DNA of 64,000 nucleotides from Melieria omissa. Taxonomy: Eukaryota > Arthropoda > Insecta > Diptera > Ulidiidae. Shown piece by piece: positions 17,431 to 60,942 of this stretch (position 1 is the first letter of the stretch; each line of letters opens with the position of its first letter). The notes beneath the pieces were generated by a model. The model saw only the letters and a list, made by a program, of their open reading frames with translations. It ran no database searches and was not told the origin of the DNA. The stretch covers positions 24,530,963-24,594,962 of the forward strand of contig OZ020269.1 of NCBI GenBank assembly GCA_963971225.1. Reading direction: 5' to 3'. Position numbers and translations under genes: made by a program.

Positions 17431-18550
17431 GTTTAATGCGACGAAGTACAAAAAGTTGACTGACGCTAACAGCTGCCAAACAAAAACTAATGATGCAATC
17501 CCGCTCAAAATTTGACAAAGATGTCAGTTAAGGTCCTACGGACCTAAAAAAAAACACATACAATTCTTTATGGCTCATCACTTTTTCAATCAAAATTTTT
17601 GGACGAACGAGTACAACGACCACCGAAAGCAAGTTTCGCTTTTCTTCAATAACTTACAAATCGCTATGCATTTGTTTTCTTTCAGTGCTATTTACACTTT
17701 CATAGCCGATTCACAAAAACACCAAACCAATTTAAACTTTTTGGCAACACTGCACTGACTTAACACCGCAAAAAATGTGTGATTTATTATTTGCATTGGG
17801 TTTCGTTAAGTTTTGGCCAAATTTCACTTTCCATGAATTGGTTTTTATTGATGTTTTATATGCCATGTTATGTTTTTATGTGTTTTCTACTTAATGTAAT
17901 AAAAAGTGGTTATTGTTTGTGGCATTTCTTGGTAATTGAAAATTTTATATGAAATACGTGCTTAGTGTACGTGTAATTGTTATTGGCGCTCAGTGGTGTG
18001 CAATGACACTGAAGCTGACTGGACACGGTGTATCAGTGACAATCAGTTATCACATGTTGTAAAATTTATATTAATGAGCGTTCATTTTGATCAGAAAAAG
18101 CAAATAATTTAAAGGTAAACAGCCAAGTTGATAAATTTCAAACTAAAAAATTATTGACATATTTTATTTGATTTCGAGATTAGCGTTTCTATTTATTATA
18201 CCAGGTGTGAGTTGCTACATTTGGCAATCATAAAGAAAAATATTGTTTATATTAAAAGCTTTTGCATGACATCGATCATGCTGATTTGGCTAGATTGATT
18301 GGATTGACTGGACTGACCTATTGTTAGAAAGCTGGAGAGTTCTACTACAAAAAATAATACAAAATTTGGGGAAACCATCAATTTTTGTTTAGGAACTAGG
18401 CTTGAGAGAAACGCTGACGCTGATAGAAACGCTGACGTGTACATGAATTTTCGATTTTTTGATCTTTTGGTCGATATATTTACTGGGTCGATCCATAGTT
18501 AGAAAGCTGGAAAGTTCTAGTACAAACAAAGTGCAAATTTAAGGCAGTCA
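17431..18550. other. Gene-free spacer with a short palindrome and a split direct repeat
   Basis: No gene is recognised. A palindromic AAGGTCCTACGGACCT lies near 17533-17548; it resembles motifs inside the TTAA element at 22929-29913. TAGAAAGCTGG and AGTTCTA recur about 178 bp apart (near 18325 and 18502), just before the hexanucleotide array. Confidence 0.5.
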
Positions 18551-20614
18551 GTATTAGTATTAGTATTAGTATTAGTATTAGTATTAGTATTAGTATTAGT
18601 ATTAGTATTAGTATTAGTATTAGTATTAGTATTAGTATTAGTATTAGTATTAGTATTAGTATTAGTATTAGTATTAGTATTAGTATTAGTATTAGTATTA
18701 GTATTAGTATTAGTATTAGTATTAGTATTAGTATTAGTATTAGTATTAGTATTAGTATTAGTATTAGTATTAGTATTAGTATTAGTATTAGTATTAGTAT
18801 TAGTATTAGTATTAGTATTAGTATTAGTATTAGTATTAGTATTAGTATTAGTATTAGTATTAGTATTAGTATTAGTATTAGTATTAGTATTAGTATTAGT
18901 ATTAGTATTAGTATTAGTATTAGTATTAGTATTAGTATTAGTATTAGTATTAGTATTAGTATTAGTATTAGTATTAGTATTAGTATTAGTATTAGTATTA
19001 GTATTAGTATTAGTATTAGTATTAGTATTAGTATTAGTATTAGTATTAGTATTAGTATTAGTATTAGTATTAGTATTAGTATTAGTATTAGTATTAGTAT
19101 TAGTATTAGTATTAGTATTAGTATTAGTATTAGTATTAGTATTAGTATTAGTATTAGTATTAGTATTAGTATTAGTATTAGTATTAGTATTAGTATTAGT
19201 ATTAGTATTAGTATTAGTATTAGTATTAGTATTAGTATTAGTATTAGTATTAGTATTAGTATTAGTATTAGTATTAGTATTAGTATTAGTATTAGTATTA
19301 GTATTAGTATTAGTATTAGTATTAGTATTAGTATTAGTATTAGTATTAGTATTAGTATTAGTATTAGTATTAGTATTAGTATTAGTATTAGTATTAGTAT
19401 TAGTATTAGTATTAGTATTAGTATTAGTATTAGTATTAGTATTAGTATTAGTATTAGTATTAGTATTAGTATTAGTATTAGTATTAGTATTAGTATTAGT
19501 ATTAGTATTAGTATTAGTATTAGTATTAGTATTAGTATTAGTATTAGTATTAGTATTAGTATTAGTATTAGTATTAGTATTAGTATTAGTATTAGTATTA
19601 GTATTAGTATTAGTATTAGTATTAGTATTAGTATTAGTATTAGTATTAGTATTAGTATTAGTATTAGTATTAGTATTAGTATTAGTATTAGTATTAGTAT
19701 TAGTATTAGTATTAGTATTAGTATTAGTATTAGTATTAGTATTAGTATTAGTATTAGTATTAGTATTAGTATTAGTATTAGTATTAGTATTAGTATTAGT
19801 ATTAGTATTAGTATTAGTATTAGTATTAGTATTAGTATTAGTATTAGTATTAGTATTAGTATTAGTATTAGTATTAGTATTAGTATTAGTATTAGTATTA
19901 GTATTAGTATTAGTATTAGTATTAGTATTAGTATTAGTATTAGTATTAGTATTAGTATTAGTATTAGTATTAGTATTAGTATTAGTATTAGTATTAGTAT
20001 TAGTATTAGTATTAGTATTAGTATTAGTATTAGTATTAGTATTAGTATTAGTATTAGTATTAGTATTAGTATTAGTATTAGTATTAGTATTAGTATTAGT
20101 ATTAGTATTAGTATTAGTATTAGTATTAGTATTAGTATTAGTATTAGTATTAGTATTAGTATTAGTATTAGTATTAGTATTAGTATTAGTATTAGTATTA
20201 GTATTAGTATTAGTATTAGTATTAGTATTAGTATTAGTATTAGTATTAGTATTAGTATTAGTATTAGTATTAGTATTAGTATTAGTATTAGTATTAGTAT
20301 TAGTATTAGTATTAGTATTAGTATTAGTATTAGTATTAGTATTAGTATTAGTATTAGTATTAGTATTAGTATTAGTATTAGTATTAGTATTAGTATTAGT
20401 ATTAGTATTAGTATTAGTATTAGTATTAGTATTAGTATTAGTATTAGTATTAGTATTAGTATTAGTATTAGTATTAGTATTAGTATTAGTATTAGTATTA
20501 GTATTAGTATTAGTATTAGTATTAGTATTAGTATTAGTATTAGTATTAGTATTAGTATTAGTATTAGTATTAGTATTAGTATTAGTATTAGTATTAGTAT
20601 TAGTATTAGTATTA
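18551..20614. repeat. Perfect (ATTAGT)344 hexanucleotide array, 2,064 bp
   Basis: Every line from 18551 to 20614 shows the same six-base unit with no substitution I can find; it breaks only at ATTATCTATG (20611). The length is exactly 344 units. The long minus-strand open frame encodes only alternating Asn-Thr and is an artefact of the repeat. Confidence 0.97.
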
Positions 20615-36999: not shown

Positions 37000-37163
37000 T
37001 TAGAACTGCAGAATTTGATTGATCCAGTCTCGAAATTCGGAGATGCGCGTGTACACGCCCGGCTGATTGGCCTCCGCACAGCCAATGCCCCACGAAATGA
37101 CACCGCCCAGCTGGAAGCGTTTGTCATCCTCGCGCTGCAGCACCATTGGGCCGCCAGAGTCAC
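37000..37163 (-). CDS. flz: flz exon 8: Ser active site and C-terminus
   Basis: It begins after TATTTCCAG with GDSGGPMV, which carries the catalytic Ser. It continues with [20 protein letters not shown], which lines the S1 pocket, and ends WINQILQF then TAA at 37000-37002. Confidence 0.9.
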
Positions 37164-40100
37164 CTGGAAATAGTTGTTTGATTAGTTGCTGCTGCAAAGT
37201 TGCTACAATTGCTTTACTACTCACCCTCGCACGAGTCGTAGCCGCCCTTCTTCCAGCCGGCACAGATGAAGATGTGCGGTATGTGTTCGATGAAGCCAGC
37301 GGCGCGATACATTGACTCGCAAATGGTGTTGTTGATCACCGGCACTGCGACCTCCTGCAACACGCTGGGCAGCGGTCCGTTCTCGTACAGGCGGCCCCAG
37401 CCTGTCACAAAGGCCGTTTGACCCACAAAGTCCTGATCGCTGTTCGGCACACAGACCGGAATAATGTTGGGCTGGAACACCACAGGCTCATAAAATCTAA
37501 AGAGAGAAAATATGTTCAACATCAAATCAAGTAAAAAATGCACTGACTGAGGCGTTACCTGAGCAGCGCCAAATCATATTCGAAGGTGCGCGCATCAAAC
37601 TGCGGATGCGAGGCCACAATCTGCACGCGTCGCTCCTGATAGCCGTACGGTTCCTCCTCCTCGGCCAGATCGTACTCGCCCATGCGCAGCAGCAGGTCCG
37701 ATGGTGGCACGCTGCATAAAAAAGAAGAAGGAGTCACAAACTGTGATGCCAATCGCAATAACACTGCACTCACTTTTCCACACAATGCGCCGCTGTGATG
37801 GCCCAATTCTCGTTTAGCAGCGCAGCGCCACACTTGTGCAGGTATGTCGAAGTGCGCCACTGGCGCAGCGAAATCTGCCATGGCCAGCGTCCGAATGCGG
37901 CATTCGAACCGCCCACAATGCGCGGCTCCGGGAACATGCGGCGGCCACAAACTGCAAACAGCGCAAGGAGAGAAAATTTAATTTGACTGTGGAGAAAGTT
38001 GTGTGTGCGCGCGAAATATTTATGTGAAGTAAGTTTAACGAGAAAACGAAAGGAAGTGAATGGAGGCGGTTGGCGTTTATTATTAGTGATAAATCTTATT
38101 AGGAAGAGTCCAGACAGTTTTTAAAAATTTTTATTGGCCCTTTTACTAAACGTCAATGAATAAAGAGTCAACAACTTTAAACATATGTCGTGGTCGCTGT
38201 GCGAAGTTGTCATAAAATTCTGTCCAATATTTTACGTTTTTTTGAGTTCAGCTAACTCACTGAATATTTAAACTCACTGATTGCATATTCATTGAACAAG
38301 TGGTGAAATTTTTCTTTATAAAAATATTTGTTCTGATTAAGAAGGAAATAAAATATATGTTAAATTGAAGCTGTGGCTCTGATCACAGTCCTTTTTTGTA
38401 TGAAATTTTGACAAGGATGTGACTCTATTTCTTCGCTGACCCGTTAATTTTTTCAAAAACACATAAAAACTGTGAAAAGATGTTTTTCTTTCTCTTCTCT
38501 GTTCCGTACTTGAAATTTCAGCCTTTTATTTCAAAATATTATTAAGACTTTAAACATTCTAAGAACCAACTAAGTCTTCTTATAAATACATACTAATTTT
38601 ACAAAAGATTGGATTTAAAAAAATCCAAATTATTGTGTGAAAAAAGTGAGAAAAGATTTTAAAAAAATTCAGCCTTTTAAGACTTTAAACATTACTAAGA
38701 ACCAAATAAATCTGTTTATAAACACATAAAAATTAAAAAGTCATTAAAAAAATGCAAAATACTTTATAAAAAATTTGATATTTTAAAACAATTTAACCCC
38801 TTAAGACTTCAAACCTTACTAAGAACCAAATAATCCTTCTCAAAAACACATACAAATGTGAAAAGATTGGATTTAAAAAAATTCAAACTTCTTTGTTCTG
38901 AACTTAAAAGTTCAGGATTTTATTTAAGGGGAGGGTAAGGGTTTACACTTTCGAAAAATGTTTTCGATTTTTTTGTTTTATCTTATTGTTAAACATTTCA
39001 AGAATATATTCTCAAAATTTTAAGTCGATCGGAGCAAAACTCTTTAAGTTATGGTCTATAGTTTAGTTCTATATAGCTTATTCTCTTCTATTGTTCTGGT
39101 CCCAAAACTACTTTTTCAAAGTCCGTGTTCACTGTCATTTAAAAACTACTAAACCGATTCATTTGAAACTTGGTACACATTTTCTACATATAAAATACCT
39201 CCTTCCAACGTTTAGTAACAAATTTCTTTTTTACATTAAGGTTTAAATAAATTTAATCAATCCATACTTAAAAAAAAAAATCATACAAAAGTGTTCTTTT
39301 TTACGCTGAAACCTTTACCCCCCTTAAAAATACTATTAAGACATCAGATAATTCTAAAAAACAAAAAATTCTTCTTCAAAACACAGAAAAATTGCGAAAA
39401 GATTTGCCTCAAAAAAGTGCAAACTTCTCTGTTCTGAACTTGAAAATGCAGACTTTTTTTCAAAGTACTCTTAAGACTTCAAACATTTACAAGAATCAAG
39501 TGGTTCTTCTTAAAAACACATAAAAAATGTGAAATAAATTTTAAAAAATTCAGCCTTTTAAGACTTCAAACATAAAAGGCATTCTAAGACCCCAAAAATT
39601 TTTTTAAAACACAAAAATTGTGTAAACCATTGATTGGATTTAAAAAAAAGCAAACTTCTCAGTTCTGAACTTATAAATTCATTCTTTTATATCCAGACTT
39701 CTAACTAAAAGATAAGTTTGAAGACCAAAGATAAGTTTGAATTCTGGAAATACAAAGGGTTTAGTTGTCCATAAAAAGCATGTTGCCATATGGCCACTAA
39801 ATAGCAAAAGGGTTAAGTCGAATAGGTTAAAGTGGCTAACAGGTCATGAGAAATGATTGCAAATTGCATTAAAAATGCTAATGGGTAACAAAATTTTAAA
39901 ACCAGATGAGTTCATTTTGCGTTCAAAGTATTTAATTGAGTTCTTCATGTGACTAAAGTATTTAGATCCAACACATTAAAAAAAAAAATTCTTTCTCATG
40001 GTTTTTCTTAAAGTTCAGATTATGAATGAACAAACCTGACAACGAAGACCTGATCTCGTTAATTATTTCTGAATCGCAAAACTCTTTAAGCCGCGGCCAA

Positions 40101-43100
40101 TTCGCCAGCAGCAGCACAACATTTCGTCGCTTTGCCACAATTCGTCGCTTTGCCACAATTCGTTGCACATCTCAAAGGCTGCATTGCAACTTAATATAGC
40201 AAAAACAAACAAACACTAGAACAACAACTGCATTTACAAGAAAATTACAAGAAATTTACACACAGGCCGCAGACCCAATAAACCTTGACTTTGGCCGCTG
40301 TGTCTGTCCGTCGGCCTGAGTCAGCGCCTGCGCCTGCGCCGCGTCCAAGGCCTACTTAGCGCTTTGGCATCGTGCCACACACTCCTGCAACTGGCCCGCA
40401 GGCCTCGACCCCCTGTCGCTCTACCAGTTTGGCCAGCAGTCCAACTGTCTGTCCATTTGCATGCCTGTCAGCCGCCGTGCTGTGTGCTGCGCTCGGCCGT
40501 CGTGCATCAAGATAATGGCCTGAAAACACAAATCGGTCAGTCAGTCGTTGTACGCCACGACCGGTCAGCGCGCACACATCATGTATGCTGAATAAACTTG
40601 TGGCTGGATGCTGTGACCCGAAAGGCCTCGCATGACTGACACAAAAATAAAACAAAAAAAAAAAAGAACACAAGCAAAGCCAAATACCGCAAAAAAAAAC
40701 ATTTTAAATAATAATAAATGATAATAAACAAAGATTGAACTCGAACGTTGGCGCGTTTGCGCTCTTCGCTTTAACTGTAAAGCTGACAGCGGACCGGCCG
40801 CGTGCTTTCTGGACGTTGTAGCGAATGCGGTTAATTGATTATGAAAGCGGTGAATTGCATTGGCGGATGCATTGGCCGATTGCTGGCAAACACAAATGTG
40901 TGAGCATTGCACTCAGGCGTCGAGTTGAGTGGGCACTGTGTAATTGAGTGTAAATTTGAGTGAGAGTTTGTGACTGGATGAAGTTGAAAACATAGGTTAG
41001 GTTAGGTTAGGTAGGGAAGGGTGTGTGCGGCAGGACCGCACTTCCACTCGGAGGCCACAATGGCCCATTGTGAATCCCTTCTCATGGTGTTCTGGAGCCA
41101 ACCAATAGTCTGAGTCAAGGGGAAACCAGTTCGACCTCTTAATGAAGGAGAGCAGATTTGAGATTTCGAATTTCGCTGCGCAAGACAGGTCTGTCAGGAA
41201 CCTTGATCCCAAGGTGCGGAGTCGGCGTTCCTGCAGAGCCGGGCAGTGGCACAGGAAGTGTTGTATCGTTTCTACTTCTTCTCCATCTCCACAGCTACGG
41301 CAGACATCACCGGACGAGAGGCGCCATTTGGTAAGCATAGATCTAATAGCGCAGTGTCCGGTGATGACTCCAACGAGCTGTCGAATAGAGGTACGACTCA
41401 GGGATAGTACGAATCGTGTTTTCGTCAAAGAGAGGGAGGGCCACAGTGCCCGGCAGGTGCCGCAGTTGGTCCTGGTACGCCATGACGACTCAATTTCCTT
41501 TTTGGTCAACCTGTCAATATACATGTACAGGGCAGATATCGGAGGAAACACAGAGGTATCCACTTCGGTGGCAGACAAAGCCACCCCTTTTCTTGCCAAG
41601 TTGAAAGCATAAAAGAGTTGGGAACAAATCTGTAACTCTTCACGTGGAAATCGCATGTATGAATATTTTCTCGCTCATAAATTTCAGCAGCTGTCAAGCA
41701 ATCCACTCAAACTTCAATCCTTGCCAAGCAATTTATATGCCTTACAACAGTGATTTAGCACAATGGCAACAACAAGAATTCAATCTGTGTGGCACTAAGT
41801 GACCAACAACGGAACTTCATCAACATAAATGACATGAAAAATTATGTCTAGTATTTGCACAAATAATCTGATGTTTGTGGTTATTGAAGTTATGTTTCAT
41901 TCTGACCGAAACTTATGTGACTCAGACTAAGGAAAGATCAGCTAAGACAGATTACTGGGGTTTTAAATGGACTGAACAGATAAGCGTCCGTGACTCTGAC
42001 AGGAAAGCAGAGGAAACAGCAGAGGAGACTTCTAAGAACAGAAGATATTTTCGAACTGGTCTGTCTTTCGGTGGTAGTTTTTGTTTGTTGCATAGTTTAA
42101 GTTAGGTTAGGTAAGGTAGAGGCAGCTGCCTCTGCATGAGACACACTTATGAAACTTTAATACCACAGTATTTACTACCCGTTTGAAATGTGTTCAAACA
42201 TACTGGTTTTCCAAAACTTAATAGTTTTGTATTACAGTCGATGTTTTCAGTTAAGCGAGTCCAAGTAAAAAGAAAAAACATTCAAAATTATTTCGAAATT
42301 TTCTGATATCGTTGCGATTTCAAAAGTCAACCGCTTCAACTAACTAAATCAGCTGATCCACTTATCAGTGATGTAATAATAGGGGCAAGAAATAGTAGGA
42401 CAGCATTTTAAATTTTTTTCACTTAGGCGGCGAAAAAGTGAAAAAGTATCTATATTTCCCAAAGTATTCTTTTACCTAACTAAATTTTTCAAATATGCAA
42501 AGTTTTAGTTAAACGAATTAATTTTCAGCAGAAATACCACAAAAATGAGACTTGGACTTTTATTTCAGTTAAGCGGATTTTTTAGCTGATCAACTTGCAG
42601 TTAAGCGGTTTTTACTGTAGAAATTTTGGTATTTGCAATATTTTCAAAGCTATCAAAAGACCAAAGATGTAACATCACCGTAGATTTTAGGCTTTGAATA
42701 CTCATTCACACTTCCTAGTCACTGTAGTGTATTTCAGGCTGAGGCTCAGGCATTGAAACTGCCCTAAACTAGGTCAAAGAGAACAACATCTCTGCATTTT
42801 GCATTGCGATTCTCTCAGGCAGCCAAGCGGCGTCCAGGGCCCTGGGAACTCACATACTAACATCGAAGACTGTGATAAGCTGTGGCACACCTCTTGACGA
42901 GATGGCTGAACAGTATAACATACACCTGATCTGGGTGCCAAGTCTCAGTGACATTTTGGGGAACGACAGGGCACATGAATTGGTCAGAAATGGTACAACT
43001 AAGATTCAAGAAGAGAAATTCGTAAAGTTAGGAACTCCACTAAATTCTCTTAAGCTATCGATCCGTAGAAGGTTTCTAACACGGAAAATACTGCCTGCGC

Positions 43101-46100
43101 TGATTTTTGAATGGACTGGGGGTCCACCAAATTTCTTCTTCTTCTTGACTGGCACGACGGCACAATTACGGACTAAGGCCTAGCTTCCCGAAACTATCGG
43201 TGTTGTGCGTGCGAATGTTTTTTACAATGTTGGAAGGGACCTACAGTTTTATGCCGATTCCGAACGGCGAGTTGGGACTTTTTTCATAGGCAATTTTACT
43301 CTCTGAGGTTTGCCATTCCCTGCTGAGAAGACAGCCGCAGAAAGTAAAATGGCTATATTTTTTTGTTAACGCAACAGAGTCTTGAACCTGGGTTCGAGCG
43401 TCGCATTTGACTCGCGGCCCAACGCACTAGCCAGCTGAGCTACGGCCGCCAAAAGTCTGCTCAGTCTAAATAGAGAAAGTTTAAGCGCGGTGGTCGGAGT
43501 TATTACAGGACACTGTATATTTTTGGCTCGTATGCCTCAAGAATAGGTTTAGGCCACCTAGCAAACGATTGCTGTAGAAGACCCTCCGAAACAAAAAAAA
43601 AATTGCTGGAACAAAATATGGTTTCAAATAGCATTGAAGTTGAAAGTTAAGATCCTGTGTACATCAGTGAACATCACACTAATATTTTGGAGAGGTCGCT
43701 TATCGAATTTTATTTTTTTTAGCTTGAAGTCGTACACCGATTTTTGTTAAGGAATATGAGTAGAGAGTTCTGCTTTAATGGAATGTTAAGTTTAATTTAT
43801 TATGATTTCTTATTCACCAAAATCCACTAAAAATTGTTAGGTTTAATTGATTGCAGTTTTCTTTCTATTTCCAAGAAAAATTTAAAATACAGGCTGAAGT
43901 AAAGCGCTCACAGTGACTATTACTGAGTCCTTCTTGTGCAAACATTGTGTTGAAGTAATAAACGTTTGTAGGTTTTTATTCGTTGTATTAATTTTTTGAA
44001 ATTATTTTTTTACTTTTATTTTTTTACTTATTCTTTTAAGGTCTCTCCATCAAGTTTTTAGTTATTCAATGAATTCCAAAATTGCACTTGGGTTCAATTC
44101 CTAGAGAAATGTCAGCAAATCCCGTTAAGTTATTAATTCGATATCCTTAATGTAACAAGCCACACGACTTGGAAACCCATTAGCTGACATATTGCAATTT
44201 ATTTCTCTTGATCTCTAATTTGATATCGAAGGTTAATATACCTACCTCCAACAAAATACATGACTTGAAAACCAATTACTTAGTTGACATATGGCAATTT
44301 ATTACATCTGAGCACAATTTAAGCATTAATCGGGTGCGAAGTTCATTTATCAAAGCCAGCTAACCAACTCAAGGGACAGCAGTTGCAGTGTACAACTTGT
44401 GACTTGTAACTTGTGACTTATGTGTGTGAAAACTTGAATACAACAATCTTTCTTCAATTGAGTGAACTGAAATGAATTTTGTCGTACATTTTCGTTCAAA
44501 AACACGTGACCAATGCAACAAACCGATTATGCACACAAAGTTGACATTTGTATGACAGCAATACCAGTGTTGTTGCTGTCACAAAACTCATCCTATGATC
44601 TTCCAGTACGAGTAACACTCAACCCACTGAGTACTTGAGGGCAATGACATTTGCACCAATTCAACGCAACATTGCAACTCGCTTTGCGTCGGCATAGAGA
44701 ACGGTTTGAAGGTCTTCATCAAGGTCGCAAAATCGGTTGATTCCTTTTATGGTTCGAATCTTGTGTACTATTTCTGCACTGCCGGCTTGCTGTTGGCCAT
44801 TTGGCCATGATGCATGTTGGCTTTTGTTTGTTTTTGCGTTTAGTTTATTTCCTTTTCGCTGCTTAACCAAAGCGTTTCGTTGTAAATTAGCAAAGCAACT
44901 GCGGAAGAATCGTGTAGAAAATGCAACAGCAGCTTGTTGGCTTCGTGGCAGTCACAGCAAGCAGCAGGCAATGTTGCCACTGGTCTGCTTGGTGCGTTAT
45001 CTGCGTTGTATGCTTTTTGCATGTATGGGTTATGTGTATTAATAGATTTTGACATGGGGAACAAGTTTTTTTGAGAAGCTTGGGAAGTCACCAAGCTGTA
45101 GTAGTTGTAGTTAAATCCATGTTTCTATGTCATGATTCATGCTCAGATAAACTCGCATCCTACAGTTTACATAGTTTTTTGGAGAATGTTAAAGATCGAC
45201 TTATTTGTTTGACCTGGTGAGGTCCATTTCCTAGAGTGTTTAGGGTGTTACAACCGGCAGAGTCTCTTAGCCTCAGTGTCTGAACATAACCTAAACACCT
45301 ATCAAATAACCAATGAATATCTCACTCACTTTGTCTATAATTTTCACTCACTTTGTCTAGTTTTTTTAGTCCTTAAGAGTATTTGGGGTCTTAAAACCGG
45401 CAAGTTTTCTTAGTCCCAGTGTCTGAACATAACCTAAACGCCAATCAATCAAAATCGAACTCTCTCTTTCAATAGTTTTATGTATTTTTTCTAGTCCTTT
45501 AGTCTTTTTGGAGTCTTAAAACCGACAAGTTCTCTTTGCATCAGTGTCTGAACATAACCTTAACACCCACCAAGTAATCAATGAATATCTCACTCACTCT
45601 GTCTATAGTTCTTACTCACTTTGTTTAGTTTTTTTTGTCCTACAGAGTGTTTGGGGTCTTACAACTGAAAAACTCCCTTAGTCTCAGTGCTTGAACATAA
45701 CCCATCAATTAATCAATGAATAACTCACTCTGTCTATAGTTCTCACTTTGTTTAGTTTTGTTTACTCCTATAGTCTTTTTGGGATCTTACAACCGGCAAG
45801 TTCCCTTAGTCTCAGCGTCTGAACATAACCTTAACACCTTTCAATTAACATCTCACTTACTTAGTCTATATAGTTGTTTTAGTCCTATAGTCTTTTTGGG
45901 ATCTTACAACCGGCAAGTTCTCTTCATCTCAGCGTCTGAACATAACCTAAACACCTTTCAATTAACATCTCACTTACTTAGTCTATAGTTCGATACAGGT
46001 TTTTTAGTCCTATAGTCTTTTTGGGATCTTACAACCGGCAAGTTCCCTTAGTCTCAGCGTCTGAACATAACCTAAACACCTTTCAATTAACATGTCACTT

Positions 46101-49100
46101 ACTTAGTCTATATAGTTTTTTTAGTCCTATAGTCTTTTTGGGATCTTACAACCGGCAAGTTCTCTTCATCTCAGAGTCTGAACATAACCTAAACACCTTT
46201 CAATTAACATCTCACTTAGTCTATAGTTCGATACAGGTTTTTTAGTCCTATAGTCTTTTTGGGATCTTACAACCGGCAAGTTCCCTTAGTCTCAGAGTCT
46301 GAACATAACCTAAACACCTTTCAATTAACATCTCACTTACTTAGTCTATAGTTCGATACAGGTTTTTTAGTCCTATAGTCTTTTTGGGATCTTACAACCG
46401 GCAAGTTCCCTTAGTCTCAGCGTCTGAACATAACCTAAACACCTTTCAATTAACATCTCACTTACTTAGCCATATAGTTTTTTTACTCCTATAGTCTTTT
46501 TGGGATCTTACAACCGGCAAGTTCTCTTTGTCTCAGCATCTGAACATAACCTAAACACCTTTCAATTAACATCTCACTTACTTAGTCTATAGTTCGATAC
46601 AGTTTTTTTAGTCCTATAGTCTTTTTGGGATCTTACAACCGGAAAGTGCTCTTAATCTCAGCGTCTGAACATAACCTAAACACCTATAAATTAATCAATG
46701 AATATCTCACTCACTCTGTCTAGGGTTCTATATAGTTTTTTAGTCCTGTAGATTGTTTGAGGTCTTACAACCGTTAAGTTCTCTTTGTCTCAGCATCTGA
46801 ACATAACATAAACACCCATCAATTAATCAATAAATATCTCACTCACTCTGTCTATAGTCCATGCCTTCCAATGTATTGACGGGCGTCACTGTTGACGATG
46901 ACATAATGGTGGCGTTGTAGTCCTCCGTCGAGTATTCGGTGGTCATGGAAACTCCACCCGCCGTTGTTGAAAAGCTCTCGGTGCTATATTCGGTGCTGGT
47001 TGTAGACGATTCCAGCTCGATTGGTGCTTCAGTTGTGGTCGTTGTAGTGGTTGTTGTGGTGGTAGTTGAAGTTCTCGGTGTTGTGGTGGTGGTTGAAGTT
47101 CTCGGTGTTGTGGTGCTGCTTGTCGTAGGACTGGCAGTGGTATGCGCTGTTGTTGTGGTTGTCGTAATTGTTGGCTTCGGCTTTGGCCTTGGCGGTCTGC
47201 TGCTTGTACTCGTTGGCTCACTTGGTGATGTGACCGGCCGTTCGGGTCTCACCATGGTGGCATTGCTCATAATTTCGCTAATACTGGTGGATACGGAAAT
47301 CTCGGTGCTACCTGTCGGTATCTCAGTGGTGAAAGCTAAGCAAAGTAAATTTGAGTATATAAAATTTCACCTCACTCATCTCCCTGTTTTACCTGTATTT
47401 GTGACCTCCACTGCGGTTTTGTTGTATGACTCGGGCAGAATGGTGGGCGCTGGTACCCATTCCGGCTCGGAAGTCCATTTGTCATCAACAGTTGCATTGG
47501 TCGTAGGCTCAGCGTCCATATTGGTCCAGGTGACCAGACCCGGTCGCATGGTGGTTATGAATTCCACCATGGGCGTTTCGGTTTTCGGTGTCTCTGTGGT
47601 GAGTGTTGCAATGTGAGCGGTGGTGCTGGTGATTGGCGCCTGTGTGGTGGGACGCGGCGTAGTGGTGGGGCGTGGCGTAGTGGTGGGGCGCGGCGTAGTG
47701 GTGGGACGCGGCGTAGTGGTGGGGCGCGGCGTAGTGGTGGTCGTTGTCGTTGTTGTGGTGGTGCTGGTTGTTGGTGTTGTTGTTCGCGGAGTAGTGCTGG
47801 TGGTGGTAGTGGTTGTTCGTGCAGTGGTGGGGGGCGCATGCGTTGTGTGCTTGCGCGTTGTTGTGGTGGACGCTTGCGTGGTGGATGCCGGTGCTGCTGT
47901 TGTGCTGACAACGGCCGCAGTGGGCTTTGGCACCTTCACCACCGCACCTGTTGGCTTGGGCTTGGGCCGTGGAGCGCGTGTAGTCGGCTGCGTTTGATGT
48001 GTTGTTGTGGGCCTATGTGTGGTGACTTTCGCTGCTGTCAGTGTGGTGGGAATTTCATCATTTGCAATGGTATTGGTGGTTTGTGGTGGCCTGCGATGTG
48101 TAGTGACCGCAGCTGTGGTGACTGCAGGCTTCACCGTCTCATTGGCGTCACTCACCACAGGGCGTCTGGTGGGTTTGACGCTGCTGGGTCGCTTGGTGTG
48201 TGCGGGTCGCTTAGTGGCAGTGGGATGGCGTGTGACCAGCGGCTTTGGTCTGCTGGTATTTCGAATGGGCGTGGCAGGACGTGTTGGTGTCGTTGCTATT
48301 GCGGGAATGAATGTGTGAATTTCGGTCACCACATCGCTGGGTTTGGGTCGGTGGCGACGTGTGGGGGTGGTGGTGGTGGTGGTGTAGTGTGGACGTTGCG
48401 TTGTGGGCACTTCGTCTGCCCTAATGCTGGGCTCTGTGGGCCCCGTTGTGGTGGTTTCGACAATTTGAAAGGTGAAGAACTTTGCTGGTGCTGTGGTGGT
48501 CTCGATGCGTTGCTCGAATTGCGGCCGTTCCCTATGCGCACTTGTCGTGGTGAGTATGGGACGTGGCACTGTGGTTTTTCGGCGTGGTGGTTTAATAGTT
48601 GTGGGTGCCAGCGTTGGTTTGGCAGTAGTTCTCACCACGAACTGTGAGGTTTTGTGTGTTGTATGCACCAGCGGACGCTTGGAGGGTGTGAGCGAGGGCC
48701 TCGAGGCTGGCTTGCCAACGCTGGGCGTGGTCTCCACTTTGTTATTGTTGTTGTGATGCAGATAGCTCTGCGTGACATTGCGCACAGTATCGCTAATGCT
48801 GCTGCTGCTGTGCACATGATGCGGGCCTTCGGTGGTGAGTTTGAAGAGCGTGCTGACGGGCAGTGTGGTGGATTCGTGTGCAAAGTGCGAAATGGTATTC
48901 TGGTCAATGCTGTTGTCGCTGATTTCGGGCGCAAACAGCGGCGAGTCCTCCTTGAGTGTGGAGAAAAAAGTTTGATACAGTGGTGAGTAATAATGCATGC
49001 AATGCGGCAAAGCTTACCTTCAACTGGCAGCAGGAGCCAAAGTAGAAGCGATCGATGCAGGTGCCCAGGTGGGTGCCGTTCTGTTTGATGCAGTCGATGG

Positions 49101-52100: not shown

Positions 52101-55100
52101 GCTTAAGTCTTTTGTATTAGACTTGCATGTTTACTAGTCATCAACTTTACATTATCATTACTACAAATGTTTCTCATTAGAATTCTACTCACACTCACAC
52201 TCACGCACACACACATAGCTGCTTATTGTGCGTAATTTAATATTTTCACAATAAATCATTTCACATCACATTGCGGCAAACACCCAGAGAACGCAACAGT
52301 CACATGGCAAACGAGAGGTCATTGCACGCTTGACACTTTGTGCTTCCGCATGAGCTTCAAAATGTACATATATGTGTGTGTAAGCATTGCTTCCACCTTT
52401 GCTTGTTGTTTGGTTTTTATGGCTGCCTCAGTTTTTCAGTTGTACGCTTAATTTATAGGTTATCATGTATGTAATTTTCTTCATGGTATTGCCCAATTTT
52501 TTTTCTTTTGCCTTTTTTCGTATCAGTTTTCTTTGTCTGTTGCGGCGTTTGTGTCCTCACGCAGTCATATACGTACACTCATACTGACACACATTAATAA
52601 CACAGCAAATGTTATAAATTATGTCAAAATCCAGAAATCGTGAAATTACGCTTGTAAGAATATTTTTTTTATTTTTATTTTTTATTCTTTATAATTTTTA
52701 AAATACTTTAATTTATTACTTCATTTTGCTACTGCGTTTCTTCGTACGAAAAAAAATTGTAAGGTACCGTAAATTGTAAACAAAAACCACAGTAACAGCA
52801 GCAACAATAACTAATGTTATTTCTCTGTTTGGTGTAATGAACTTTTCAACAGCAGTAAAAAAGTTCTAATGCTTGCGGGCCGGCAAAAGGAGCGTCAGTC
52901 CATCCATATGTTGTGCACATGTTTATGAATGGCTGTGTGTGTGTGTGTGTGGGAATGATGTTGATTGGATAATGAACACGTACGGATTAACCTAAATTTC
53001 GTGTTGTTTCATTTTGTTGACATTATGATATAACATTTCTTGGGATTCGCCTGAAGCCTGTTGGCATTTGAGAGTTAGTTATGTGGAGATGTGGAAGACA
53101 TTTGATGAAGAATTGTGGAATATTTTTGTTCAGGAGAAGATTCTTAGATGGAGACAGAGAGAACTCAGTAAAGATTGTTTGATGTAACAAGACATCAATA
53201 CATATTACATGAAATATTGCTGTGAGTAAGAAATCATTTAAATTATATCAGAAGTTAATATTGAAAATAATTTTTGTTTCCCTGAGTTAAAAATAACTCA
53301 AATTGGTATTAGAAGTAATCATCGCAAACAATTATTTTTGCTTTTAATTAAAAATAACGCGGGTTCACATCATCATCAACTAAACACTGAAAGCAGTTCT
53401 TGTTGCTTTGAGTAAGAAATAAATCGAGTTGGCATCAGAAGTAAACATTGCAAGCAATTTTTGTGGCTTTGAATTACAAATGACTCGAGTTGGCATCAGA
53501 ACTGAAGATTGGAAAGCAATTCTTGTTGCTTTGAGTAAGAAATGACTGGAGTTGGTATCGGAACTAAACATTGTAATCAATTCTTGTTGCTTTGAGTTAG
53601 AAATGAATCGAGTTGGCATCAGAAGTAAACATTGCAAGCAATTCGTGTTGCTTTAAATTAGAAATAAATCGAGTTGGCATCAGAAGTAAACATTGAAAGC
53701 AATTCTTGATGCTTCAAATTAGAAATAAATCGAGTTGGAATCAGAACTGAAATTGGAAAGCAATTATTGTTGCTTTGAGTTAAAAAAGACTCGAGTTGGA
53801 ATCAGAAGTAAATATTGCAATTAATTCTTGTTGCTTTGAGTTAGAAATAACTCGAACTGGCATCAGAACGAAACATTGCAAGCAATTCTTGTTGCTTTGA
53901 ATTAGAAATAAATCGAGTTGAAATCAGAGGTAAATATTACAAGCAATTCTCGTTGCTTAATGACTCGAGTTGGCATCACAACTAAAGATTGCAATCAATT
54001 ATTGTTGCTTTGAGTAAGAAATAACTGGAGTTGGTATCAAAACTAAACAATGCAAGCAATTCTTGTTGCTTTGAGTTAGAAATGACTCGAGTTGTCATCA
54101 GAAGCAAATATTGCTAGCAATTCTTGTTGCTTCGAATTAGAAATAAATCAAGTTGGCATCACAACTAAACACTGCAAGCAATTCTTATTGCTTTGAGTTA
54201 GAAATAACTGGAGTTGGTATCGGAACTAAACATTGCAATCAATTCTTGTTGCTTTTAGTTAGAAATGACTCGAGTTGGCATCAGAAGTAAACATTGCAAG
54301 CAATTCTTGTTGCTTTAAATTAGAAATGACTCGAGTTGGCATCACAACTAAAGATTGGAAAGCAATTCTTGTTGCTTTGAGTAAGAAATGACTGGAGTTG
54401 GTATCAGAAGTAAGCATTGCAAGCAATTCTTGTTGCCTTAAATTAGAAATAAATCGAGTTGGAATCAGAAGTAAATATTACAAGCAATTCTCGATGCTTT
54501 AAATTAGAAATGACTCGAGTTGGCATCTCAATTAAAGATTGGAAAGCAATTCTTGTTGCTTTGAGTAAGAAATGACTGGAGTTGGTATCAGAAGTAAACA
54601 TTGCAAGCAATCTTGTTGCTTTGAGTTAGAAATGACTCGAGTTGGCATCAGAACTAAACATTGAAAGCAATTGTTGTTGCTTTGAGTTAAAAATGACTGG
54701 AGTTGGTATTGGAACTAAACATTGCAATCAATTCTTGTTGCTTTGAGTTAGAAATGACTCGAGTTGGCATCAGAAGTAAACATTGCAATCAATTCTTGTT
54801 GCCTTAAATTAGAAATAAATCGAGTTGGAATCAGAAGTAAATATTACAAGCAATTCTCGATGCTTTAAATTAGAAATGACTCGAGTTGGCATCTCAATTA
54901 AAGATTGGAAAGCAATTCTTGTTGCTTTGAGTAAGAAATGACTGGAGTTGGTATCAGAAGTAAGCATTGCAAGCAATTCTTGTTGCCTTAAATTAGAAAT
55001 AAATCGAGTTGGAATCAGAAGTAAATATTACAAGCAATTCTCGATGCTTTAAATTAGAAATGACTCGAGTTGGCATCTCAACTAAAGATTGGAAAGCAAT

Positions 55101-58100
55101 TCTTGTTGCTTTGAGTAAGAAATGACTGGAGTTGGTATCAGAAGTAAACATTGCAAGCAATCTTGTTGCTTTGAGTTAGAAATGACTGGAGTTGGTATCG
55201 GAACTAAACATTGCAATCAATTCTTGTTGCTTTTAGTTAAAAATGACTCGAGTTGGCATCAGAAGTAAACATTGCAAGCAATTCTTGTTGCTTTAAATTA
55301 GAAATGACTCGAGTTGGCATCTCAATTAAAGATTGGAAAGCAATTCTTGTTGCTTTGAGTAAGAAATGACTGGAGTTGGTATCAGAAGCGAATATTGCAA
55401 TCAATTATTGTTGCTTTGAGTTTGAAATAAATAAAGTTGGAATAAGAAGTAAATATTACAAGAAATATCTCTAGAAGAAAACTCTTGCTTTGAGTTAAAA
55501 ATAACTTTAGTTGTCATCAGAAGCAAATATTGCAAGCAATTCTTGTTGTTACTTTAGTTCTGAAATAATTCAAGTTGCCATCACAACTAAACTATATATT
55601 AGATCAGATTATAATAACAACAATCACTCAATGACAAACAAAAGTTGCACCACTATTTTCGAATATTAATGTTTCATCCAAAATATTTGTAAAATATTAC
55701 TTAAGACGACGTTAATTACTAATTTTAACACAATGATGATACGTTGGGAATTCTAAATGGTTTTTATAACAACTTAGTATTTATTACAACAAAAATAACA
55801 ACTGTTCATTAAAAAAAAGGGAGCTAAAATAACAGCAACAGCTCAGAGAACGTGTCAGCGTTGACAAGAATAAAATATAATTTTGCACATTACTAGCAAA
55901 AAACGTGCACAAAAATAAAGACAACAACAGCAACAAAGCACTATAGAACAATAACAACTATGAAATAGCCGCTACCGTTGATGTATCACCATTTGGGACT
56001 CTAAGTAAAACGTTTGTCACGTTTTGTGCCAGCGGCAAGCATGCGTTCAGACCTAAGTCGAAGTCAACGAATGAACGTACAAATGGATGGACAAGCAAAT
56101 GCTTCAGACATACACAAACACACACACAATTTCATTTTACACACATAGATAAATTCATACAAGTAGCAGCCACAGCCATTGCCACCCTGCAACGGCGGTG
56201 AGCAAGAATTTCTATTGAATATCGCACCGGCAGCGCTGTGTGTCCGTCCGTCTGACTTGGTGCAGTGACGCGGTGTGTGTGTGGAAGTAGTTGGAAGTGT
56301 GAAGCGGCCTAGCATGGTGCTGGCGTCCATTTCAGCGGCTGCGCATGGCTTTTGTTTGCAGTTAAAATATTTATTTGGGTCAACACTTGAGCGAGAATGT
56401 TGTCGTCCGCGTTGTTGCCGTCGTTGTTGTTGTTACTGTTGCTGTTTGGCGTCGTTTGCTCCAGCCCCATTCAGCGATCGGCACAGCTACAACCACAGCC
56501 ACAGCACCAGCAGCAGCAGCTGTTCGGTGTGCTTCTTCTTCTTCTTCAACACCATCTTCAGCAGCGCTTTTTTCATATTGAATATTCCGCATGCGCACAA
56601 AGCGTTCTACGCGCTCGCCAGTACCGTACACTGTGAGTTTCTTTTCTTGTCTACGCGTTCATTTTTTTTCGTTTCATTTCTTCTTGCTTTATTTATTTAT
56701 TTATTTATGTTTATACTAACGTTTATTGTAGTTTTGGAGAACTGTCGGTGTTGTTGTTGCAATTATATTTTATAGATTCTATCACCACACGGCGACACTG
56801 ACCGCAACGCAAAGCAGGCAGCAAACAAATTTTTTGTGGGTGAGCTGGAAAGTAGGTCGCTGTGCCAAGTTTAGCAACGACCAGGAGTCAACGACGCCGC
56901 TGTCATTGCCTTCACTGTCATGGTCGTTTGTTGTATGGGTGTGAATGTGTGAATGTGTTCGTGTATTTAAATTGAATTTAAATTTACTGCGCTAAATTTG
57001 CTTTTATTTATTTTTACTGCAGTCAGAGCAAAAGTTCTTTTCTCACTAACGCAACGTGCTGCTTTCTAACTAACAATTGTGGTTGCATTGCCAGTGTGGT
57101 TGTTGTTGTTTTTGTTGTTCGTGTGCGCTATTTTCAGTGACTCGAAATGGCGCACTTGATTCCCTTTCACTTGGCACTTAGTTTGCTGCTCTCTTTTGAG
57201 TTGATTAATCGCCGAAAACCGTTGTGGCTGATTTTTATCCATTGCGCAGCGCATTTGACATACATTCTGCACTATTTTCGGTTTTCTTTTTTTACATCTA
57301 CATACGAGTGATTTTCATTAAGCTTTGGCTTCAACTTCATTACTTGATTTTCTGAATTTTCTGAATTTTATTGACCATCATTTTTTGGCTCAATCGTAAA
57401 AAAGTGCAATAGTCCATGTGGAGCCTGTCGTTGCCGCCATCAATCGGTTGTTGCTGTTGTTGTTATTGTTTTTGTTGTTGATGTCCATTTTTATGGCCAC
57501 ATTCTTTGCACACGATCTGGCTTGTTCGTTCGCTCGTTCGCCGTTGACCTCAATTGCTTTCGGCCACTTAATAAGAAAGTTTTTTCCTGTCTTGGCTGCT
57601 GCCACTCAACACACCGTGCGCATTGTTGTTGTTACTGCTGTAAATAGTGTGTGATTGCATTTTTGTTGTTGTTGCTTAGATGATTTGTTTTTTGGGTGAA
57701 TGCGCACACTTTGTTTTCCATTTCTTGCCGACTGTAGACAAATTGGCAGTTGGCGCAGCTGGTGCCTTGGCCACTGATGAGCTACGAAATCCGGCACACA
57801 ACAGGCGCACAAAAACGCAGGAAGTGGTAATGGCGTGTAAATTGCCTAATTTATTTTGATTTTGTTTTATAGATTTGACCTATTTTTATCGCATCACGCT
57901 TGTTGATGTGAAATCAAAATCGAGTTTGTTGCTTGAGTCTTTCGTTTGCATCCAAATGTTCTAGTTTCTTTTGCTACAATTACTTTCACTGCTTTATTAA
58001 TAAACGTGTGAACAGTTTTTGTTTTCAATTCGTTCAGTTTGTTGCTTAAGTCTTTTGTTTTAACAAAGTTACATGGCTTCGTTGAAATTTGTGCTGGCCT

Positions 58101-60645: not shown

Positions 60646-60942
60646 GTTGCCGGCGCGCAGGTGTTTTTGTTGTTGTTGCTGGTGTAGATGTTGATGGTAT
60701 GCTTCTAGCTGGCAACTGTGTGTTGCTTTGGCTGTGGTCATCTGTGTAGCAATGCATTTATTTGTGTCTCGTGTGACTGGCTGCCGGTTTGTGGGACATT
60801 TGCTGCTGTCAGTGGCGGCAACGCTGAGTGAGGAGCATGAAGCGGTTGTTGCTGTGGTGCTGGCTGACATTGAGTGGACCGACGAGGTAACGGTTGAGGG
60901 CGGCGGAAATGCAGCGGGCTGTAGTTGACGTATTGTGCCCAT

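Follow-up and report, generated by a model that had tools for sequence, protein, structure and literature searches.

A tandem array including the exon 4 splice donor of a probable Notopleural-type protease gene in the fly Melieria omissa

When a tandem array grows at the edge of an exon and carries the splice donor with it, do the copied donors regulate the gene or do they simply travel with the repeat? This question is raised by a 64,000-nucleotide stretch of the genome of Melieria omissa (Diptera: Ulidiidae; assembly GCA_963971225.1, contig OZ020269.1, positions 24,530,963 to 24,594,962), hereafter the window, in which the first 1.6 kb of intron 4 of a serine protease gene on the minus strand is a genuine tandem array whose units run up to the exon 4 donor. 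A sequence-only reading of the window had assigned the gene to flz and suggested that the number of units could tune how much protease is made. It is likely that the array is a minisatellite which arose by duplication of the exon 4/intron 4 boundary in a Notopleural-type gene, with any effect of copy number being a by-product and not a selected control.

The argument depends on the position of the true donor. Joining exons 2 to 8 (seven exons, minus strand; Table 1) yields a single open frame of 989 residues, and among the donors tried it is only the one at 46846 that leaves the spliced frame open, the donor G at this position lying in phase 1 and being joined to the acceptor at 37951 (TT-TGT). 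The frame comprises a long Thr/Ser-rich stalk, followed in its C-terminal part by a trypsin domain (PF00089, E 9.5e-60). Residues 690-989 are 94-95% identical to six tephritid proteins across the full stretch, and 96% identical to a Musca model over 83%. At the exon 4 junction six of six tephritid proteins read carry DYRQI, with Rhagoletis reading GMDYRQI. A wider comparison used 120 listed relatives out of 179 matching the N-terminal 130 residues; the motif located the junction in 44 of these, the other 76, Rhagoletis among them, being missed by the pattern and not compared, and D[YF]xx[VI] was found at 43 of the 44 junctions read, the remaining one being NYRQV. As the junction holds I in tephritids and V in the Drosophila rows read, the codons imply that a tephritid-type donor has A at position -1 and that the others should have G. 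The exon 4 donor placed at 46847/46846 by the sequence-only reading is thus upheld, both by the open spliced frame and by the conserved junction residues.

The right edge of the array is this donor, and the unit alignment crosses it at 46846, so that the array includes the splice donor of the exon. Tandem Repeats Finder (TRF) describes a period of 125 with 11.7 copies between 45358 and 46823, and cutting at the common TTATGTTCA followed by alignment gives 13 units, twelve of 116-143 bp and one truncated. The earlier count of 13 units therefore stands, but the two strings with which these units were said to end occur exactly only two and four times, that is six times with the true donor counted in. 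No second copy of the unit above chance was found elsewhere in the window, and a search of 45000-47400 for RNA families returned no known family up to E 0.1. Exact-match searches for copies with a 38-mer in prokaryote contigs and with a 21-mer in virus contigs gave zero matches, which says nothing on flies.

The source of the unit can be read from the last 14 bases of exon 4, GGACTATAGACAGA. This motif precedes the decoy donors, i.e., the GTRAGT sites of the array past the true donor, with 13 of 14 matches at two decoys, 11 at four, 10 at one, 7-8 at four and 3 at one. Elsewhere in the window, none of 147 GTRAG sites agrees at more than 7/14, and 62,317 minus-strand positions beyond the array give 11/14 at best. 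Since the 14 bases code for conserved residues, the exon is the source and the intron holds the copies; A at position -1, moreover, is not the splice consensus, and descent therefore fits better than convergence. Growth from the exon/intron boundary, which had been proposed at the outset, is well supported by these matches, and the sequence indicates that the array most likely grew across that boundary. The first junction may be interpreted as a duplication in which ...CTCTAGGA, at the edge of the array near 45229, became joined to GGACTATAG (exon end) via a common GGA.

Past the true donor, GTRAGT occurs 12 times in the array vs. three times in the other 7.3 kb of intron 4, and the complementary strand of the array has none; mononucleotide shuffles (1000) gave a mean of 1.45 and a maximum of 6. 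In an approximate weight table, 13 sites in the array (8.0 per kb) score at least as high as the true donor, compared with two over the remaining intron (0.28 per kb). The excess is smaller against 500 dinucleotide-preserving shuffles of the array at a looser score threshold (mean 5.7, maximum 13, vs. 13 observed). As these shuffles reach 13, base composition accounts for part of the donor density, and the case for more than chance lies mainly in the repeat structure and less in the donor count. The 12 decoys, matching the previous estimate of about a dozen, lie 132-1517 bases downstream of the true donor and are spread over ten of the 13 units, hence not one per unit. Two donors each are present in u10 (45619/45597) and u12 (45351/45329), and the three units without GTRAGT are u5, where a 4-bp deletion at the donor leaves GTGAGA, u11, which has lost the GT, and u13, which ends before the donor. 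A role of RNA structure in masking donors was considered and rejected, as the probabilities of nine unpaired bases showed no pattern: the true donor fell at the 35th percentile, and values for the 12 decoys ranged from the 12th to the 81st.

Read-through past the true donor adds two more residues before a stop (DYRQ-S-E-stop), and every decoy gives the identical DYRQSE-stop end. The sequence-only reading was accordingly correct in expecting TGA within three codons and, as a consequence of decoy use, a stalk without protease domain, for which a single truncated frame results from any decoy. Annotated models without a Pfam domain number eight among the 120 listed relatives (of 179), and inspection of their ends identified two, P0122 and P0155, that terminate as if reading through the same phase-1 boundary. 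P0122 belongs to the sand fly Phlebotomus argentipes and was found by script, and P0155 belongs to the beetle Holotrichia oblita and was found by eye; in both, the read-through is judged from the codons allowed by the last residues, and these gene predictions are silent on the array described here.

The consequence of such a truncation depends on the identity of the gene, for which the name flz is probably incorrect. Stubble, filzig and notopleural all occur, intermixed, among the database names of the relatives. In Musca, two proteases are fused in a model called filzig; the first of them is 89-98% identical per exon to the window gene and the C-terminal one, which we take to be the true filzig, only 39-51%. 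Drosophila flz has about 1693 residues. In D. yakuba, the relative of this window gene comprises 1045 residues with the catalytic Ser at 994, and the published account of Drosophila Notopleural (Np) gives 1041 residues and Ser 990 (PMC6331135). The distance from this Ser to the end is 52 in both the D. yakuba relative and the second Musca protease and does not discriminate between them; consequently, total length and identity carry the assignment. Judged by these comparisons, the window gene is probably Np, the matriptase homologue, and not filzig. In the same study, the catalytic activity of Drosophila Np is needed for tracheal chitin structure and an S990A form fails to rescue the mutant (PMC6331135), and a stalk-only product should therefore lack the function of Np.

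Are the decoys kept by selection? The central units u2-u8 are 83-100% identical, with u4 equal to u7, whereas identity among the old full-length units (u1 and u9-u12) is 64-83%. Old edges around a young centre are what is usually seen when homogenisation of an array proceeds from its centre. Variability was scored per column over u1-u12, excluding the partial u0 and the truncated u13 and treating gaps as a state. The donor core showed a mean pairwise difference of 0.249 vs. 0.173 unit-wide (0.167 and thus about average for the GT pair alone), and when 103 nine-base windows were ordered with the most conserved first, it ranked 86th. With three of 13 units also devoid of GTRAGT, maintenance of the decoys by selection was dropped as an explanation; the pattern resembles an ordinary minisatellite and gives no apparent sign of selection keeping the decoys. 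The most conserved stretch is instead TTATGTTCA, which is invariant in 13 units (45280-46806) while the donor core drifts. Column shuffling gave P 0.02-0.15 for this run depending on the rows used, and its conservation is partly circular, the units having been cut at TTATGTTCA, so that nothing is built on it here.

In the proposed scenario, the first duplicated segment would have spanned the boundary, with 14 bases from the end of the exon and about 100 from the start of the intron. Each copy would have brought a splice donor along, since the donor lay inside the duplicated segment, and the array would then have expanded, its centre being homogenised through unequal exchange or slippage. Most transcripts would be spliced at the first, true donor, while a minor fraction may use decoys and encode the single protease-less stalk frame, probably to be cleared by nonsense-mediated decay, and any influence of copy number would arise incidentally.

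Several points weigh against this scenario. Donor strength was estimated by two rough measures, the weight table and the U1 pairing energy. In the former, the true donor has the lowest score among the six donors of the gene (by U1 pairing, the exon 5 donor is weaker), with nine decoys above it and three equal to it. In the latter, three decoys equal the true donor and nine are weaker, all within about 1 kcal/mol. The measures differ in direction and support decoys of comparable strength to the true donor; given weight-table scores at or above that of the true donor, decoy use could be high. In addition, the minisatellite account leaves the most conserved stretch, TTATGTTCA, unexplained. Finally, the boundary origin is drawn from the array of one assembly, with a presumed single-copy ancestral state.

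Twelve decoys of comparable strength that all reach the same stop might be taken for a rheostat, in which decoys compete for U1 and divert transcripts to the truncated stalk, with unit number setting the protease dose. A precedent is provided by the variable number tandem repeat (VNTR) in intron 18 of human ABCA7, which has a 25-bp unit and contains the exon 18 donor in its first two bases; longer arrays go with lower expression and with more skipping of exon 19, the next exon (PMC5954066). Both arrays adjoin an exon and include its own donor, and later units of both carry spare donors whose use adds sequence and ends the frame. The units in M. omissa are, however, 116-143 bp long with 14 exon-derived bases, and length variation and splicing were measured in ABCA7, whereas the fly array is described from sequence. 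Moreover, the same report assigns 2 +/- 1% of transcripts to the donor of the next ABCA7 unit, independently of length, and reports no length effect on decay (PMC5954066). A donor-containing array can therefore affect dose, in ABCA7 by a route other than the spare donors. Together with a donor core that drifts no less than the remainder of the unit, and with the lack of GTRAGT in three units, this makes competition for U1 a quite improbable explanation. Equally improbable is its extension to a heritable dial, in which decoy number would set how large a share of the protease transcripts becomes unproductive or stalk-only, and the central expansion, with its change of GTGAGT to GTAAGT, would have shifted the dial in this lineage. 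Copy-number tuning is thus unlikely to be a selected function.

Acceptor-like and donor-like sites alternate along the array, which would also allow the acceptor-like TTATGTTCAG and the next decoy donor to delimit pseudo-exons, mostly of 71-90 nt, that slow the removal of intron 4 by trapping splicing factors. A stop is present in all 12 stretches tested that are entered at TTATGTTCAG from the true donor (one of these sites has CAA, and the damaged u5 donor closes one stretch), TTATGTTCA is invariant, and weak-site decoy exons are described as detaining an intron in human OGT (PMC12017769). The OGT case likewise concerns weak 5' and 3' splice-like sites in an intron, intron 4, with a stop if included, but it involves a single decoy exon of about 150 bp whose effect on intron detention was tested, compared with many repeats known from sequence here (PMC12017769). 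Since the pyrimidine tracts are poor (8-11 of 20 vs. 11-18 at the real acceptors of the gene), one of 13 acceptor-like sites has CAA instead of CAG, and the conserved run suffers from the cutting and the marginal shuffle values given above, intron detention appears highly unlikely. Hardly more credible, and still very doubtful, is the arrival beside the exon of a dispersed repeat or mobile element that already existed. Tandem arrays abound in the window and intron 4 holds a retroelement-like frame, but the unit has no further copy in the window, which is the extent of what was covered, and the shared exon bases code for residues conserved in other flies and match in register far above background. 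Conservation of TTATGTTCA beside a drifting donor core might, lastly, indicate repeated protein-binding sites around TTATGTTCAGA acting at the DNA level as an intronic enhancer or silencer, with the donors as passengers; the sites are putative and the conservation is just marginally unusual, and such an element is, like intron detention, highly unlikely. A minisatellite that arose from the boundary thus remains the preferred reading.

Two further systems are related to the array in part. Boundary internal tandem repeats in human duplicated genes show that splicing can be altered where a minisatellite expands at the edge of an exon; these have units of 30 bp on average and about four copies, and were found as paralog differences with transcript support (PMC2812944). 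In intron 3 (IVS3) of the Drosophila P element, donor-like sites also lie near a real donor, and U1 bound to one of them influences the use of the real donor, but these are two exonic sites upstream, which act with PSI and hrp48, unlike the repeated intronic sites downstream considered here (PMC7776569). Decoy exons and P-element pseudo-donors illustrate that splice sites which go unused may still have regulatory effects, although no published system proves anything for the array of M. omissa. All 12 decoys lie downstream of the true donor and so do not correspond to an exonic pseudo-donor silencer of the P-element type, whose sites lie upstream in the exon. No insect donor array was present among the literature matches listed, and searches on a Drosophila minisatellite at an intron 5' splice site and on filzig introns gave no match, most subscription journals being outside the coverage.

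The coordinates of the gene and the array are compiled in Table 1. A short match to the N-terminus of a Ceratitis relative at 60892-60942 (82%, E 3.5e-4) may represent the first coding exon of the gene. In intron 4, a 225-residue open frame at 40997-41674 (minus strand) matches PF13966, a reverse-transcriptase zinc-binding family, weakly and below the curated cut-off, and is likely a retroelement remnant. Long tandem arrays are common in this window, TRF having identified six of more than 500 bp. An AGTATT array of 2.1 kb (18550-20614; about 344 copies, 100% matches) is strikingly uniform for its length. A 2.2-kb array of 61-bp units (53247-55466; 36 copies, 80% matches, also with period 428) is located upstream of exon 2, probably in intron 1 of the protease gene.

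Table 1. Coordinates of the protease gene and of the intron 4 array in the window
Feature	Position	Strand	Basis
Exon 2	49175-49018	-	Open spliced frame
Exon 3	48950-47393	-	Open spliced frame
Exon 4, end of Thr/Ser-rich stalk	46847..47335	-	Open spliced frame, conserved junction residues
End of exon 4, 14 bases, GGACTATAGACAGA, from which the motif preceding the decoys derives	46847..46860	-	Match test; coded residues conserved
True exon 4 donor GT, AGA/GTGAGTGAG (slash marks the boundary), phase 1	46845..46846	-	Spliced frame
Intron 4, 8,895 bp	37952..46846	-	Spliced frame
Exons 5-8, separated by three short introns and coding for the trypsin-type catalytic domain after intron 4	37000..37951	-	Spliced frame, PF00089
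Exon 5	37951-37774	-	
Exon 6	37711-37559	-	
Exon 7	37496-37225	-	
Exon 8, to stop	37163-37000	-	
Whole tandem array, from distal intron 4 edge to the 14 exon-derived bases at the end of exon 4	45229..46860	-	TRF, unit alignment, exon match
u1 (old type), decoy donor 46714	46675..46806	-	Unit alignment
u2-u8 (young centre)	45829..46674	-	Unit alignment
Decoy donors in u2-u8 (u5 with deletion at donor)	46581, 46465, 46340, 46102, 45977, 45860	-	
u9-u12 (old type), decoy donors 45728, 45619, 45597, 45351, 45329; u11 donor lost	45290..45828	-	
u13, cut off before donor position	45229..45289	-	Unit alignment

A donor-containing array beside an exon is of a kind already published for ABCA7, and the fly array is a further case. 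As a natural example it is clean, a minisatellite that apparently began at an exon/intron boundary and in whose copies the source exon is still legible, and it offers a fly system for measuring the effect of repeated donors on splice-site choice. If decoy use were substantial, repeat number would constitute a mutable control of a matriptase-type protease, a regulatory role to which the conservation pattern lends no support. At present, the array mainly illustrates how splice signals may be carried along by repeats without obvious harm.

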